This document shows positions 1-32,972 of a stretch of 32,972 nt of DNA, one piece after another. The DNA is taken from the IMG/VR virus record IMGVR_UViG_3300042462_000011, positions 1 to 32,972 of that record; one strand, 5' to 3'. Position 1 is the stretch's first letter. Every line of letters starts with the position of its first letter. Source of the DNA: a virus. The translations under genes were made by a program, and so were the position numbers. The notes beneath the pieces were generated by a model. That model did not search any database. It saw nothing but the letters and a program-made list of their open reading frames with translations, and was not told the DNA's origin.

Positions 1-186
1 AGCACACATGGCCTGCACACGGGCATCCTCGCCACTGTAGTCATCGCCTGGGGCAACAACGTGGCGGTGGAACGTGCCGCTGATCTGCTTGCCATCTTCC
101 ATGATGCGAGTAGCTGTGCGAACTTGCACAACACCAGACTCGACCACTTCAATACGGTCAACGATTTCAATTTTTTCTAAAGCCAT
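1..186 (-). CDS. Small conserved phage protein, left-edge partial copy
   Basis: The first 62 codons of a gene running off the left edge. It starts at an ATG at 186 with GGAGA six bases upstream. The protein begins MALEKIEIVDRIEVVESG and aligns without gaps to the complete 82-residue protein at 32541-32789, with about eight amino-acid differences (for example Ser/Asn, Val/Cys, Ala/Lys, Arg/Ala around residues 17-27). No function is recognised. It lies directly downstream of the tailspike, as does the right-hand copy, so this is most simply the same locus from a different allele of a circular map. The first seven codons are nearly identical between copies and divergence starts just after them. 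Confidence 0.8.
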   Translation of the reverse strand, partial: MALEKIEIVDRIEVVESGVVQVRTATRIMEDGKQISGTFHRHVVAPGDDYSGEDARVQAMCA

Positions 187-212
187 TTTGATCTCCAATC
201 AAAACCAAGAAT

Positions 213-229
213 CCAGTGTTCCGCACTGG
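213..229 (-). terminator. Weak hairpin after the tailspike gene
   Basis: Read on the minus strand, CCAGTG and CACTGG form a six-pair stem with a five-base loop, followed by ATTCTTGGTTTTG. The T-tract is interrupted, so it may be a leaky terminator or an mRNA-stabilising 3' hairpin between the tailspike and the next gene. It is identical in the right-hand copy (32816-32832). Confidence 0.4.
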
Positions 230-234
230 CACGG

Positions 235-1755
235 TTAAGTTGTTACGCTCTTGATGACGCTGAAGTTGAGTTCAACCGCTTCAGACAAATTTCCACCAGA
301 GATGTTTTGCAAGTTAATGATTGCCAAATTGTTCCCGCTACTTGGTGCGGCCCATACTTGGTAATTTGCAGAATCAACACCACCAGCACCAGCAACAATA
401 TTGACCAATACGATGTCGGTATTTTTGATGAACGTGTTGTTCAAACCAAAGCTGACACTCGCACCAGCAGAAAGCAGTGCGTTGTTCATCGTAATTTTTC
501 CGCACTGCTTATTTAGCGTGACCGATGTGCTTTTGCTCGTAAGTTGCGTGACAGCACCGCCAGCGCCCGTGTCATAGCCAAAACCGCCAGCGAATCTAAC
601 GCTGTTTTCAGTATCTCCAAAAGAATACGGCAACACTGAGTCAGGGTTATTTTCACCTGTTGGTGGGTAAAGCACATTACCATTTGCGTCATTGTGAATT
701 CCAGCGTAATGCGCTCTCGGATCACCAGACGGCCCTGTGTCGTAATTAAAACCACAAAACGATTGAGACAACGCAGTAACATCAATTGCTGCTGGCGCAC
801 CACCCAGAGGCATTGTGAAAAAGTTATTGGATATTGTGAATCCTCTGTGGTAAAGAGGAAGATTGCCAATTGGAAAAGTAACACATGCGTCAGATGTGTT
901 AGTTTTTGCAGAAAAGGTGTTTCCCGTGATAGTTGCACCAAAGCACGGCCCTTTTAAATTTGTTCCAGTGACGCCGCTTACAACACCAAAAAACAAGTTT
1001 GCTTCGTTAACGCCGTAAGGCGTCTCGTAGGCGTGGCCCTCAAAAGTCAAACCAGTTACACCAGCAAAATAAACAGCACCAAGTCGTGCGCCATTTAAGT
1101 TGTTGCCAATGAACACATGGACGTTTCCACCATCGTCAATGATGTTGTATTTTCCACCATTAAATTGATTGTCCTGCACTGTAATGCCGTTTGTCCATCG
1201 AACATTACCACCTGCTCTCCATTCTGGACCGTTGGTGATCCACATTGCCGCACCATTTACTTGACTTCCAGCTTCAAAAATACACCTGTGGAAATGTGAG
1301 ATTTCAGATTGGTCAATGACAATGGCATAAAAAAATCCTGTGCTCCAAACAAGGTCAACCTCGTAGTAAGAATAGCCACCAGAATTCATGGCAATACCAG
1401 CGCCAGTATTTGCAACATCAAGCGCCCGAATCTTAAAATTCTTAAGCTGAGAATTTCCATAACCAGACTGGTTTACTGGGTTGTTTCCAACTTCAATGCC
1501 ATTGCCTGTTCCGGTGTAGGAGATGATGGAGTCATCACGGCTTTCACCAAACAGAATTTTGTTGTTTGGAACAACAAGCGTTGAGTCAATCCGATAGTCG
1601 CCAGCGGGGATGTACACTGAACTGCCAGCCGCAATTGCGGCATTGAAGTATGAAATGCAATCTACCGCAGCAGGGTTAACGCCTGCGGGAATAAAATCCG
1701 CAACATTTACCACGTTGTCGGCGATCATTGAATAAGTGACTTTGGTCAACGCCAT
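235..1755 (-). CDS. Tailspike / receptor-binding protein (pectate-lyase-like beta-helix)
   Basis: A 506-residue virion protein predicted to bind or cleave host surface polysaccharide. Residues 20-70 carry the usual entry to a phage beta-helix: a short N-terminal segment, then a stretch like the pectate-lyase superfamily (AIAAGSSVYIPAGDYRI). A long region of Asn/Gly-rich short strands follows (about 70-370), typical of right-handed parallel beta-helices. The last 100 residues (from about TSKSTSVTLN) match a C-terminal module common on phage tail fibres, ending SEAVELNFSVIKSVTT. It lacks a P22-type head-binding domain, which is found instead on the protein at 2403-2888. ATG at 1755 follows AAGGA. 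Catalytic residues cannot be assigned by eye, so enzymatic activity is inferred. The 3' end recurs at 32838-32972 with one Thr-to-Ile change. Confidence 0.8.
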   Translation of the reverse strand: MALTKVTYSMIADNVVNVADFIPAGVNPAAVDCISYFNAAIAAGSSVYIPAGDYRIDSTLVVPNNKILFGESRDDSIISYTGTGNGIEVGNNPVNQSGYGNSQLKNFKIRALDVANTGAGIAMNSGGYSYYEVDLVWSTGFFYAIVIDQSEISHFHRCIFEAGSQVNGAAMWITNGPEWRAGGNVRWTNGITVQDNQFNGGKYNIIDDGGNVHVFIGNNLNGARLGAVYFAGVTGLTFEGHAYETPYGVNEANLFFGVVSGVTGTNLKGPCFGATITGNTFSAKTNTSDACVTFPIGNLPLYHRGFTISNNFFTMPLGGAPAAIDVTALSQSFCGFNYDTGPSGDPRAHYAGIHNDANGNVLYPPTGENNPDSVLPYSFGDTENSVRFAGGFGYDTGAGGAVTQLTSKSTSVTLNKQCGKITMNNALLSAGASVSFGLNNTFIKNTDIVLVNIVAGAGGVDSANYQVWAAPSSGNNLAIINLQNISGGNLSEAVELNFSVIKSVTT

Positions 1756-9232: not shown

Positions 9233-10641
9233 CAGTATGCCAGTGGCTCAATCTGAGCTTCAAGTCGCAGAAATGACACATGAGCATCACTGTCGCCGCG
9301 GAACCGCTGAATGCGCCAGTTTCTCATGTGGCCCTGTTGGAACCATGCGAGGCGCTTCTTGGTGTTGCCGATCGTGCCCACCGAGATAAACTTTTCTTGG
9401 CTGTATGACTTGCCATCTAAAGAGTAGCTGGTGCTGATCTGCGGATTCTTGCCAAGGGCAACGCTGCCCGTCAAGCTGACCAACTCCAACTCATTGAAGA
9501 TAGCGCCGTTGCTCTCGTTGTAAACAATCAGCGTGCCGAATTCCCAATAGACCTGTTGGCCCCAGTGACTGCCAATGTCTTGCACCAGATAGCCGATGCT
9601 GTTTGACTGCGGGTCACCCACCAACCATTTGTCATAGGCCCACACCATGTTTCTTGCTCGGTATTGAGCAAGGCCCGTCAGGGTGCTGACTAAGATGAAC
9701 CAGACAGGGGTTTGCAGCGCCTGTGATGCTGATGCGTCATAGACCAACGTCTGGTTGGGCAGATGCACATACAGATGTTCATGGTTCTTGTCGTTTCTAG
9801 CCTCAATCTTGACCAAGGCCAACTGCGCCTCTGTGAAGTCCAGCAAGATGTTGTCAATCTCTTGCGTACTGATTTTTTGAGTGGTTGCCGAGGCCGCAGT
9901 ATAAATGCCTGGGGCTTCGTTGCGCCCACTGCCCAAGAATGCAATTTGGTCAAGATAGACACAGCAAGCCTGAACACCAACGCAGCCCTTTTGAACCTGT
10001 GCGCCCTGTATCACGCCAAATGGAAACGGCACAGCAGTTCCGAGGTTGTCGTAAACCTCCATCGTGAATCTGTTGATGGCGTAGACCTCATTCCGCAAAC
10101 GCAGCAGCGATGTCACTGGATCTGGGTCGGCAATAGGCTCTTCAAAGGCAAATGCCCCAATAACAAACGGATCGCCAATGTTTGTAATGAACAACCGATC
10201 TCCATCAGTGAGCATAAAACGCCCATCAATGAAGCAAAAATCAATGATTGGCCCAATGGTTACCAGTGGGTAACTGCCTTGCGTTAGGGTCGTGCCATTC
10301 CAGAAGTAAATGTTCCCACCGGATGCAACAGCCAATTCATCAAAGCTGTAATCAAAGGTCACAAGCCCACCGCTGCCCACATCGCCCAGGATGGTCACTG
10401 CACCAGTGCTGCTGATCTCCACCAGCTTTGTCCCCATGACCCTATAAACATCGCCATTCCAGTTGATGCCGCCACGGTCAACCCCTGGGCCAGTGCCGTT
10501 GGCAACAATGCCATCACCGGGACGCAAAAACCCATTGCTGATGCCCGACACTTTTGGCACAGGCATCAGATTCACTGGGTACGATGTACGCAGCTCAGGG
10601 GTGTTGTCGGTGAAAATACCGTTGAGGATTGGTATTTGCAT
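9232..10641 (-). CDS. Packaged-DNA stabilisation protein, P22 gp10-like
   Basis: A 469-residue protein close to the length of P22 gp10 (about 472), which forms the hexameric ring below gp4 and closes the portal after packaging. Landmarks shared with gp10: an N-terminal YPVNLMPVPK segment, a GDVYRVMG strand, RFMLTDGDRLFITNI (141-155), VQKG (216-219) and VYDASASQ (300-307), and the C-terminal GKSYSQEKF / KKRLAWFQQGHMRN pair. The repeated blades suggest a beta-propeller. Its position between gp4-like and needle-like genes supports the call. Confidence 0.88.
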   Translation of the reverse strand: MQIPILNGIFTDNTPELRTSYPVNLMPVPKVSGISNGFLRPGDGIVANGTGPGVDRGGINWNGDVYRVMGTKLVEISSTGAVTILGDVGSGGLVTFDYSFDELAVASGGNIYFWNGTTLTQGSYPLVTIGPIIDFCFIDGRFMLTDGDRLFITNIGDPFVIGAFAFEEPIADPDPVTSLLRLRNEVYAINRFTMEVYDNLGTAVPFPFGVIQGAQVQKGCVGVQACCVYLDQIAFLGSGRNEAPGIYTAASATTQKISTQEIDNILLDFTEAQLALVKIEARNDKNHEHLYVHLPNQTLVYDASASQALQTPVWFILVSTLTGLAQYRARNMVWAYDKWLVGDPQSNSIGYLVQDIGSHWGQQVYWEFGTLIVYNESNGAIFNELELVSLTGSVALGKNPQISTSYSLDGKSYSQEKFISVGTIGNTKKRLAWFQQGHMRNWRIQRFRGDSDAHVSFLRLEAQIEPLAY

Positions 10642-10935
10642 TTACTTGGCCTTGTTTCGTGCGCTGATGCGTTTTGCTTTGGCTTGAGCATCAGCCTTAG
10701 ATGATGCGCCCCAAGCTCTCAAACTTAGCAGCAGGCGGGTAGGTTCACCATCTTTGTATTCAGGGCCAGGATTGCCGCCCATACGGGCTAGAAACGATGC
10801 CCTGCGGGGATTGTCACCAGACTTGACGGGAGGCTTAAGATTCATGCCTTCAGCACGGGCAGCAGCACGCCCTTTGGCGTTCAAGCCGCCTTTGGGGTTT
10901 TGACCTTCCTTGCGTGCATAGGCTGGAGTCTTCAT
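10642..10935 (-). CDS. Small basic protein, DUF6321-like
   Basis: A 97-residue Lys/Arg/Ala-rich protein. The order of motifs (PAYARKEGQNPKGGLNAKGR, then PPVKSGDNPRRASFLARM, then GEPTRLLLSLRAWG) fits the phage family I know as DUF6321. No enzyme motif is present; the composition suggests nucleic-acid or capsid association. Its stop abuts the gp10-like start and its own start overlaps the upstream stop (ATGA), so it is translated as part of a tight chain of small basic genes. Confidence 0.75.
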   Translation of the reverse strand: MKTPAYARKEGQNPKGGLNAKGRAAARAEGMNLKPPVKSGDNPRRASFLARMGGNPGPEYKDGEPTRLLLSLRAWGASSKADAQAKAKRISARNKAK

Positions 10936-11165
10936 CGAAACCTCTTAATCTTTTCGGCAACCTTTTTGGGCTGCTTTGCAAATTGTTCACCCTTGGCTGT
11001 GGCCTCACGCTTTGCCTTGGTGGTCGCCGCATATTCAGCCGATGACAGGGCTTTGATGGCCTTTTCGGGCAGATAGCGTTCACCTGTCTCAGATGATGGC
11101 TTGCCGGACTTGGTGCGCCACTTCTGAGCGCCCCAATCTTTCAGGCTTTTTTGCGGGGCTTTCAT
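10932..11165 (-). CDS. Small basic protein, DUF5872-like
   Basis: A 77-residue Lys-rich protein starting MKAPQKSLKDWGAQ. The segment KSGKPSSETGERYLPEKAI is characteristic of a conserved phage/environmental family (probably DUF5872). I chose ATG 11165 because it forms an ATGA overlap with the preceding gene; the longer reading upstream would overlap that gene by over 60 bases. Function unknown; its neighbours suggest a virion-associated role. Confidence 0.72.
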   Translation of the reverse strand: MKAPQKSLKDWGAQKWRTKSGKPSSETGERYLPEKAIKALSSAEYAATTKAKREATAKGEQFAKQPKKVAEKIKRFR

Positions 11166-16144: not shown

Positions 16145-16163
16145 CTTTTGACCCCATTAAACT

Positions 16164-16185
16164 CACCCATTGAAAACGGTGGGTG
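16164..16185 (-). other. Short hairpin between portal and scaffold genes
   Basis: CACCCA and TGGGTG form a six-pair stem with a ten-base loop in the 73-base portal-scaffold gap; on the minus strand it is followed by AGTTTAAT, not a proper T-tract. Possibly an attenuator or RNA-processing/stability element; weak evidence. Confidence 0.3.
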
Positions 16186-16217
16186 GCATCCGTTAATACA
16201 TTCTCGCCTGTTTTTTA

Positions 16218-24914: not shown

Positions 24915-24949
24915 CGGTGCATTTTACTAAACAAAGTGGACAACCGTAT

Positions 24950-24964
24950 TAGGGAAAGTCCCTA
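24950..24964. promoter_or_regulatory. Palindromic operator, copy 1
   Basis: TAGGGAAAGTCCCTA is a perfect inverted repeat with six-base arms and a three-base centre, 20 bases upstream of a promoter -35 box and 36 bases from the divergent Cro-like gene. A related palindrome precedes the second promoter (26295-26312). It is a likely repressor or activator site; the Cro-like protein is the obvious candidate ligand. Confidence 0.6.
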
Positions 24965-24984
24965 TAAAAATATCGCATCATTTA

Positions 24985-25012
24985 TTGACGAGTGTTTAGA
25001 ACCCTATACAAT
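24985..25012 (+). promoter_or_regulatory. Early promoter P1 (sigma70-type)
   Basis: A -35 box TTGACG (24985-24990) and a -10 box TACAAT (25007-25012) are separated by 16 bases. Predicted transcription start near 25019, only about 40 bases before the first gene of the plus-strand operon. The spacer end AGAACCCTATACAAT is identical in the second promoter at 26332-26359. Confidence 0.75.
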
Positions 25013-25021
25013 GTGACCATG

Positions 25022-25059
25022 CCCTAGCAATTTCGCACAAGGGTCTTTTTGGAGAAATC
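25022..25059 (+). promoter_or_regulatory. Leader hairpin with U-tract and ribosome-binding site, copy 1
   Basis: CCCT (25022-25025) pairs with AGGG (25040-25043), with a possible GC/GC inner pair; TCTTTTT follows at once and then GGAG, with ATG at 25060. A terminator-like hairpin is thus joined directly to the ribosome-binding site. The same order is seen at 26369, 26629 and 29095. Confidence 0.55.
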
Positions 25060-26289: not shown

Positions 26290-26294
26290 GTCTT

Positions 26295-26312
26295 ATTAGG
26301 GAAAGTCCTAAT
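26295..26312. promoter_or_regulatory. Palindromic operator, copy 2
   Basis: ATTAGG and CCTAAT arms flank GAAAGT; the site shares ATTAGGGAAAGTCC with the operator at 24950. It ends 19 bases before the -35 box of the second promoter, nearly the same spacing as copy 1. Confidence 0.55.
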
Positions 26313-26331
26313 AAAAACAGCGCGAAACCTC

Positions 26332-26359
26332 TTGATAAATGTTCAGAACCCTATACAAT
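26332..26359 (+). promoter_or_regulatory. Early promoter P2 (sigma70-type)
   Basis: TTGATA (26332-26337) and TACAAT (26354-26359) with a 16-base spacer. The segment from the spacer through the leader is nearly identical to promoter P1, so the two are duplicates of one module. It should drive the recombination genes downstream. Confidence 0.75.
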
Positions 26360-26368
26360 GCACACATG

Positions 26369-26407
26369 CCCTAGCAATTTCGCCAAGGGTCTTTTTAGGA
26401 AACTACC
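26369..26407 (+). promoter_or_regulatory. Leader hairpin with U-tract and ribosome-binding site, copy 2
   Basis: CCCT (26369-26372) pairs with AGGG (26386-26389), an inner GC/GC pair is possible, then TCTTTTT and AGGA before ATG 26408. The sequence CCCTAGCAATTTCGC is shared with copy 1 at 25022. Confidence 0.55.
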
Positions 26408-31527: not shown

Positions 31528-31983
31528 TTACCCTTTCAGGTCAAAACTTAGGTTTGGATGGCGGGGATACTGAACCACCCGCTCACCCTCGGGGCACTTG
31601 TACTTGATTGTTGCCAGCAGGGTTGCCTTGCCATCAGCGATTTTCTCTTTCTGCACCATCGTGAGCTGGTACGTGAAGGTGTCAATCTCTGGCCCTGCTG
31701 GGCCGCTGAATTTGCTTGCCGTGGTGGTCGCTGCATGCACCATCCCTGATGCGTCACGGATGCTTGGCGTGAAGCTCTCGACAGAGCAGTCGTCACGCTT
31801 TTTAATCCGCGCAACAGTGACGGCGATCGGCTTCCCGGCTTCAGCGGTGATCTTGAAGTTCTCAGGCGACCACTCAATGATTGCCCGGTCAAACCAGCCA
31901 AACTTGTCGGCCAGTGTGTAGCTGCCGCCAAGCGCAGCAACGCTTGCGGCAACTGCTCCGATGGCTTTGGTAAGGTCAATCAT
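31528..31983 (-). CDS. Membrane-anchored protein of unknown function in the lysis cassette
   Basis: A 151-residue protein. The N-terminus (LTKAIGAVAASVAALGGSYTL) is a likely signal anchor; residues 35-150 are beta-rich with two cysteines (in RDDCSVES and KYKCPEGE), suggesting a periplasmic domain held by a disulfide. Located just before the holin, where spanins or accessory lysis proteins often lie, but no lipobox or spanin coiled coil is visible. The start overlaps the upstream stop as TGATG. Confidence 0.62.
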   Translation of the reverse strand: MIDLTKAIGAVAASVAALGGSYTLADKFGWFDRAIIEWSPENFKITAEAGKPIAVTVARIKKRDDCSVESFTPSIRDASGMVHAATTTASKFSGPAGPEIDTFTYQLTMVQKEKIADGKATLLATIKYKCPEGERVVQYPRHPNLSFDLKG

Positions 31984-32186
31984 CAGACCCCCAACATCTT
32001 TTTCAACATCTCCGCAGCAAAGCCTGGGCCGAGCAGCGTCACGGCAATGAGCGCATAGAGGATGTACTCAATACGGCTCATGCGCTTGCTGCCTGACTCA
32101 AACGACTTTTGGATGGCATCGTACCTCAGTGCACAAATTTCTTCATGCGTTTGAAGTCGTGCATCAGTTGCATCGACCTGATTCAT
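31983..32186 (-). CDS. Small membrane protein (XhlA/holin-accessory-like)
   Basis: A 67-residue protein with a cytoplasmic helix (ARLQTHEEICALRYDAIQKS) and a C-terminal transmembrane segment (ILYALIAVTLLGPGFAAEML). This layout is shared with small XhlA-like or lysis-associated proteins of phages. Its start overlaps the upstream stop (TAATG at 32186). Likely a lysis accessory protein; unproven. Confidence 0.62.
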   Translation of the reverse strand: MNQVDATDARLQTHEEICALRYDAIQKSFESGSKRMSRIEYILYALIAVTLLGPGFAAEMLKKMLGV

Positions 32187-32539
32187 TACATGCCTTCGCC
32201 CTGGACGATGTAGACGGTGGAAGCAGCCGAGGCCAAGCCGCTGAAGAATGACTCACGGGCAAAGCGCAAGACCTCAACAGCACCAGGCACTAGCACAATC
32301 GCAGCCGATGGCGTGCCAGCAACAGGAGCCACAGCATTAGCCGTGGCGATCGCCGCTGTTGGGCCTACACCGAGAAACACCGTGTTGGCGCTGCTGTTGA
32401 TGATGCGGTACTGACCTGTACCCTGACCATCAAAGCGTGCGTCAACCAGCGCCTGAACGCCAGTGGAGGCCATAGCCGCAGCAGGGATTAGGACTGTATT
32501 GCCAAGTGGGGCAAATGCAATTTGACTATTCGATGCCAT
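32186..32539 (-). CDS. Small beta-rich virion-like protein
   Basis: A 117-residue Ala/Val/Thr-rich protein. NSQIAFAPLGNTVLIPAAA and GTGQYRIINSSANTVFLGVG suggest a beta-sandwich; the end (SFFSGLASAASTVYIVQGEG) resembles small virion or decoration proteins in other phages. I chose ATG 32539 since AAGGAG lies just upstream; an upstream codon in frame runs into the previous gene. A structural role is inferred only. Confidence 0.68.
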   Translation of the reverse strand: MASNSQIAFAPLGNTVLIPAAAMASTGVQALVDARFDGQGTGQYRIINSSANTVFLGVGPTAAIATANAVAPVAGTPSAAIVLVPGAVEVLRFARESFFSGLASAASTVYIVQGEGM

Positions 32540-32540
32540 C

Positions 32541-32789
32541 TCAAACTCCTTGTGCAGCTTGGGCTGCTTTGTAGGCTGCAATTACGCCAGCAGTGTGCGT
32601 TGCAGCACAGATGGCCTGCACACGGGCATCTTCGGCGCTGTAATCATCGCCGGGGGCGACAACGTGGCGGTGAAAGTTGCCACTGATCTGTTTGCCATCT
32701 TCCATGATGGCGGTCTTGGTGCGAACTTGCACACAGCCGTTTTCGACCACTTCAATACGGTCAACAATTTCAATTTTTTCTAAAGCCAT
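32541..32789 (-). CDS. Small conserved phage protein, complete copy
   Basis: An 82-residue protein starting MALEKIEIVDRIEVVENG and ending AYKAAQAAQGV. A beta-strand start is followed by KQISGNFHRHVVAPGDD and a helical C-terminal third (ARVQAICAATHTAGVIAAYK). ATG 32789 has GGAGA six bases upstream; a TTG further up is not supported. It is the allelic or duplicated counterpart of the fragment at 1-186. Similar small proteins follow tail genes in other phages; function unknown. Confidence 0.75.
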   Translation of the reverse strand: MALEKIEIVDRIEVVENGCVQVRTKTAIMEDGKQISGNFHRHVVAPGDDYSAEDARVQAICAATHTAGVIAAYKAAQAAQGV

Positions 32790-32815
32790 TTTGATCTCCA
32801 ATCAAAACCAAGAAT

Positions 32816-32832
32816 CCAGTGTTCCGCACTGG
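32816..32832 (-). terminator. Weak hairpin after the tailspike, right copy
   Basis: Identical copy of the hairpin at 213-229: CCAGTG/CACTGG stem on the minus strand between the end of the tailspike and the small gene. Confidence 0.4.
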
Positions 32833-32837
32833 CACGG

Positions 32838-32972
32838 TTAAGTTATTACGCTCTTGATGACGCTGAAGTTGAGTTCAACCGCTTCAGACAAATTTCCACC
32901 AGAGATGTTTTGCAAGTTAATGATTGCCAAATTGTTCCCGCTACTTGGTGCGGCCCATACTTGGTAATTTGC
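32838..32972 (-). CDS. Tailspike C-terminus, right-edge partial copy
   Basis: The last 44 codons and stop of the same tailspike as at 235-1755, running off the right edge. It is identical to the left copy except for one base (32845 versus 242), changing the penultimate Thr to Ile. It supports continuity of the tailspike across the contig junction. Confidence 0.85.
   Translation of the reverse strand, partial: ANYQVWAAPSSGNNLAIINLQNISGGNLSEAVELNFSVIKSVIT

Follow-up and report, generated by a model that had tools for sequence, protein, structure and literature searches.

The scaffolding protein of phage P22 regulates its own synthesis post-transcriptionally, and the leader of T4 gene 32 is a phage translational-operator pseudoknot. 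In short-read assembly, 127 is a common top k-mer. Assemblers working on circular templates leave terminal repeats equal to the k-mer length, as illustrated in Extended Data Fig. 3 of the CheckV study (PMC8116208). The window analyzed here, which comprises an entire virus record (32,972 bases), has a terminal repeat that resembles these in that its exact run equals an assembler k-mer and its position varies between relatives. Unlike them, its overlap is longer (369 bases) and inexact, because a two-allele branch would precede the k-mer node. The repeat is ordinary and explained, and the artefact class to which it belongs is already known. The structured leader RNA that lies within it matters more.

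Terminal match and genome closure

When the two ends of the window were aligned, positions 1-369 matched 32604-32972 without gaps and with 28 mismatches (92.4% identity), which is not a chance match (E = 4.6e-156). The earlier note had placed nearly all mismatches at 7-163, which is correct for 27 of the 28; the last one is at position 242, in the end of the tailspike gene. The features involved are as follows.

1-369, no strand: left terminal copy, putative allele A arm of an assembly lasso (end alignment)
32604-32972, no strand: right terminal copy, putative allele B arm (end alignment; identical to contig L005)
243-369, no strand: 127-base exact run, putative assembler k-mer node common to both arms (same signature in relatives)
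32846-32972, no strand: right copy of the 127-base node (end alignment)
1-186, minus strand: small gene (phrog_6228 family), allele A, first 62 codons, cut by the contig start (open reading frame)
32541-32789 (32544-32789 plus stop codon), minus strand: small gene, allele B, complete, 82 aa (open reading frame, profile, AF2 model)
235-1755, minus strand: tailspike gene, pectate-lyase-like, 506 aa (open reading frame and profile evidence)

Positions 243-369 are exactly 127 identical bases that reach the contig end. This run is identical by construction because the contig could stop there only on an exact match, and the informative part for a divergence test is the end match minus this run. In that part, the mismatch density is 27/157 vs 1/79 (p = 1.6e-4); therefore, the divergence step near 163 is real. 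The result of a change-point scan, with its best split near 139, was equalled by none of 2000 shuffles. The near-identity claimed previously for the gene start, hairpin, and tailspike end stands with its single mismatch at 242, but from 243 onward it carries no information of its own. Reading the whole divergence boundary as biology was partly rejected on account of this constructed identity; the right edge at 369 is the assembler's k-mer cut. As for the differences between alleles A and B, 17 of 27 are at third codon positions and 13 of the 20 changed codons are silent. The two copies differ in the manner of real genes or alleles.

We inspected the ends of 33 related contigs. Exact end overlaps are 127 (five contigs), 123 (two contigs), 93, and 55 bases long. 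Inexact overlaps with an exact 127-base run at one end were found in G003 (180 bases, one mismatch at 53), G040 (280 bases), and G031 (1354 bases, 87% alike). The overlaps of G011 (147 bases) and G024 (121 bases, one mismatch) speak against this pattern, since their terminal exact runs measure 126 and 73 bases. The junctions are scattered, at the coat start (G003), at terminase/portal (several), and at other structural genes (G015, G023, and G024), and therefore fit circular maps, not a fixed terminal repeat. By appearance, G003, G031, G040, and the window are complete circular genomes. Inexact overlaps ending in a run of k-mer size mark complete circular phage genomes, which tests for exact repeats miss; at least four such contigs are present in the small set examined, and the repeat itself is mainly a caution. 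The ends of G011, G012, G040, G029, and G031 cluster around the terminase/portal junction (at 18.2-19.5 kb in the window by homology) more than even scatter would predict, which may come from strongly conserved sequence in mixed samples.

The closed junction itself is continuous in L005, a 7.8-kb contig of another record, which spans it without a structural break and has allele B only once. Starting at position 31973, L005 matches the window with 100% identity up to 32972, continues at 370, and keeps that identity as far as 2828. Before 31973, it is only ∼93% identical, with indels, and the sharp step at 31972/31973 marks a mosaic or assembly boundary between the two. L005 therefore belongs to a related strain and not to the same genome, and it is itself an assembled contig. 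As for copy number, the small gene is present in 31 of the 40 related records searched, in exactly one copy in all 31, and the window alone has two copies, one at each end. G002, whose portal protein is 99% identical, has a gene body resembling allele A, once and at the corresponding position.

The k-mer signature, the single-copy junction in L005, and the one copy in 31/31 relatives bear out the earlier proposal that two alleles of a circular genome were joined by assembly. It is almost certain that the genome is circular, with a unit of about 32,603 bp, and was closed by assembly through two strain alleles of the small gene. The assembly of this circularly mapping phage would have used a de Bruijn graph, presumably with k = 127, on a sample containing both alleles. 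The contig would start on a dead-end branch with allele A, run once round the 32.6-kb circle, return via allele B, and end at the 127-base node already used, which is a lasso. The alleles differ in the gene body and have in common the gene start and leader, which are strongly conserved and form the boundary of tailspike exchange. P22-type portal, scaffold, and coat genes, i.e. P22-like head genes, were found in the window. Virion DNA is probably headful-packaged and permuted, the sole pointer to permutation being the scattered contig junctions.

Two non-identical, apparently functional copies on one contig would also fit a real tandem duplication of the tailspike end and small gene whose copies have since diverged, which was the alternative previously offered. 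This is very improbable, since the gene is single-copy in all the relatives bearing it, L005 has a single copy joined to both flanks, and the limits of the repeat coincide with those of the contig, with an exact run of 127 bases. A T7-like physical direct terminal repeat of virion DNA would likewise explain why a genome-length contig bears such a repeat at its two ends, but its copies are expected to be identical whereas these differ by 8% (92% identity), and the overlaps of relatives are at other genome positions with lengths equal to k-mer sizes. Its probability is close to nil. A doubtful, although possible, refinement of the circular genome closed through two alleles is that the contig is chimeric, in which case the allele B arm (31973-32972) would come from an L005-like strain and the main genome would have allele A. 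The step in L005 identity at the start of that arm agrees with this, but the identity continues through the tailspike gene to 2828, which could equally be a real recombinant cassette common to two strains.

The small gene and the tailspike boundary

The small protein matches the phrog_6228 profile over its full length (residues 1-80, E = 1.8e-22) and shows no notable difference from this family of aquatic phages, which is annotated as of unknown function and has relatives in cyanophages and pelagiphages. The homologue in Pelagibacter phage HTVC168P immediately follows the tail fibre gene. When cellular genomes were scanned, a single relative turned up, on a beta-proteobacterial MAG contig, and a Pfam search of the small protein gave no match. 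The AF2 model confidently (pLDDT 92) predicts a beta3-alpha2 arrangement of three long strands plus two helices. A Foldseek search with this model gave no match at E <= 0.001, and a second look gave none at Z >= 5. The predicted fold therefore appears to be without a clear relative among solved structures, although relatives may exist.

The start of the small gene and its 48-base leader are conserved across phages with unrelated upstream genes. DNA homology ends at or before the tailspike stop codon, within a dozen bases, in 145 of 146 related loci; L005 is the sole locus in which it runs on past the stop. We therefore conclude that the tailspike gene has been swapped against this point. The divergence step between the two terminal copies is near the gene start because the leader is conserved and the boundary of tailspike exchange is there. 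The earlier note had postulated a recombination breakpoint near the start of the small gene: the step is real, but it reflects this conserved leader and exchange boundary across relatives and is not a demonstrated single event between A and B. The leader element helps explain the clean border left by tailspike swaps. In the closest relative (L043 5400-6300; G002 10431-11100), there is an extra 87-aa reading frame between the tailspike and small genes, with a pseudoknot leader of its own.

Structure and distribution of the leader RNA

The leader is found in both terminal copies, and a distinct leader precedes the window's own scaffolding gene.

187-234, minus strand: structured leader RNA, left copy (covariation, pairing)
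234-232/223-221 and 229-224/218-213, minus strand: pseudoknot stems S1 and S2 of the left copy
204-198/192-186, minus strand: hairpin 2 of the left copy, with the Shine-Dalgarno GGAG (196-193) in its loop
32790-32837, minus strand: right copy of the structured leader RNA, immediately following the tailspike stop codon (covariation, pairing)
16145-16193, minus strand: leader of the window's own scaffolding gene, conserved, different in sequence from the tailspike-adjacent leader

After the tailspike stop codon, the leader reads CCG-UG-CCAGUG-CGG-AA-CACUGG. CCAGUG and CACUGG form a six-base-pair hairpin, whose loop CGG pairs with the upstream CCG to give an H-type pseudoknot whose loops measure 2, 0, and 2 bases. 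It is followed by UUUUGAU-UGGAG-AUCAAAA, in which the loop contains the Shine-Dalgarno GGAG and the stem's final A doubles as the first base of the start codon. Hence, the "intergenic hairpin" of the earlier note is present, but it is part of something larger, an H-type pseudoknot that covaries, followed by a hairpin at the ribosome site. Of the cells in 27 distinct small-gene leaders, which were selected visually for this type, 96% pair, and pairing falls to 40-48% when partners are slid by one column. Both-sided changes in this set amount to 48 cells vs 17 in shuffles. The pseudoknot stem occurs in small-gene leaders as CCG/CGG, CUG/CAG, and UCG/CGA.

IMG/VR was scanned with two DNA patterns of the pseudoknot, which gave at least 120 matches each and at least 240 in all. 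Among the 240 matches listed, 239 are outside a long open frame, 20 lie 5' of the small gene, and 206 lie 5' of one protein family, with the AUG mostly 40-43 bases on. The latter family consists of head scaffolding proteins (phrog_8865, E = 2.6e-30). Because a pattern search biases such counts, we repeated the search protein-first. The pseudoknot was found in 52 of 53 distinct scaffolding-gene leaders, also in the form CCU/AGG, and pairing was 88.9% vs a maximum of 81.9% in 500 shuffles. A second hairpin of at least 4 pairs follows the pseudoknot in 28 of 29 distinct scaffolding-leader segments vs 3.7 in shuffles. When small-gene leaders were anchored likewise, pairing was 88.5% vs a shuffle maximum of 79.5%, in only 26 distinct segments from 93 leaders, the other small-gene leaders being of different types. 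The shuffle comparisons leave sequence relatedness uncorrected.

The window's own scaffolding gene belongs to another branch of the family, phrog_648. It is possible that its leader forms an H-type topology (ACGG/CCGU plus CACCCA/UGGGUG), which is too invariant to count as proof. The 5' part of this leader motif is present in 38 of 39 distinct relatives. In the L258 version, the stem reads CATCCA/TGGATG.

Elsewhere in the window, 24947-25053 and 26294-26400 are a repeated leader of 107 bases, 77% alike, and a ribosome-site motif, GGGTCTTTTTGGAGAAATCATG, is repeated at 25033, 26628, and 29093, before rightward genes. Together they may mark a repeated promoter or leader.

No Rfam 15 covariance model matched the leader, either in the window or in ten element-bearing loci, at E up to 5-10, and none of six records matched Polynucleobacter-1 RNA (RF01718) at E <= 10. 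In the open-access papers searched, we found no description of the scaffold-leader pseudoknot.

Putative function and comparison with known operators

We regard the leader RNA as a candidate for a new family within a known kind of RNA. Its arrangement suggests a translational operator, in which the pseudoknot would stack immediately 5' of a hairpin that exposes or masks the ribosome site, and translation would be set by the binding of a phage or host factor to the leader. We give even chances to the broader proposal that it represents an undescribed class of phage cis-regulatory RNA, composed of a pseudoknot and a ribosome-binding-site hairpin upstream of phrog_8865 scaffolding genes and of the post-tailspike small gene, which would act as an operator tying scaffold and small-gene output to the state of virion assembly and would mark the point of tailspike exchange. 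Recurring ahead of scaffolding genes in hundreds of contigs from aquatic phages, many of them freshwater, a structured, covarying element would make the control of scaffold output directly testable.

The closest parallels are two phage systems. The likeness to P22 is a scaffolding gene of a phage head module under post-transcriptional control, here a proposed one, and makes scaffold autoregulation the first candidate mechanism; binding of the scaffolding protein to the present leader is hypothetical. With operators of the T4 gene 32 type, the leader shares an H-type pseudoknot just 5' of the ribosome-binding site in a phage mRNA, but it differs from them in sequence, geometry, and the genes concerned (scaffolding and post-tailspike), and its trans-acting factor is hypothetical.
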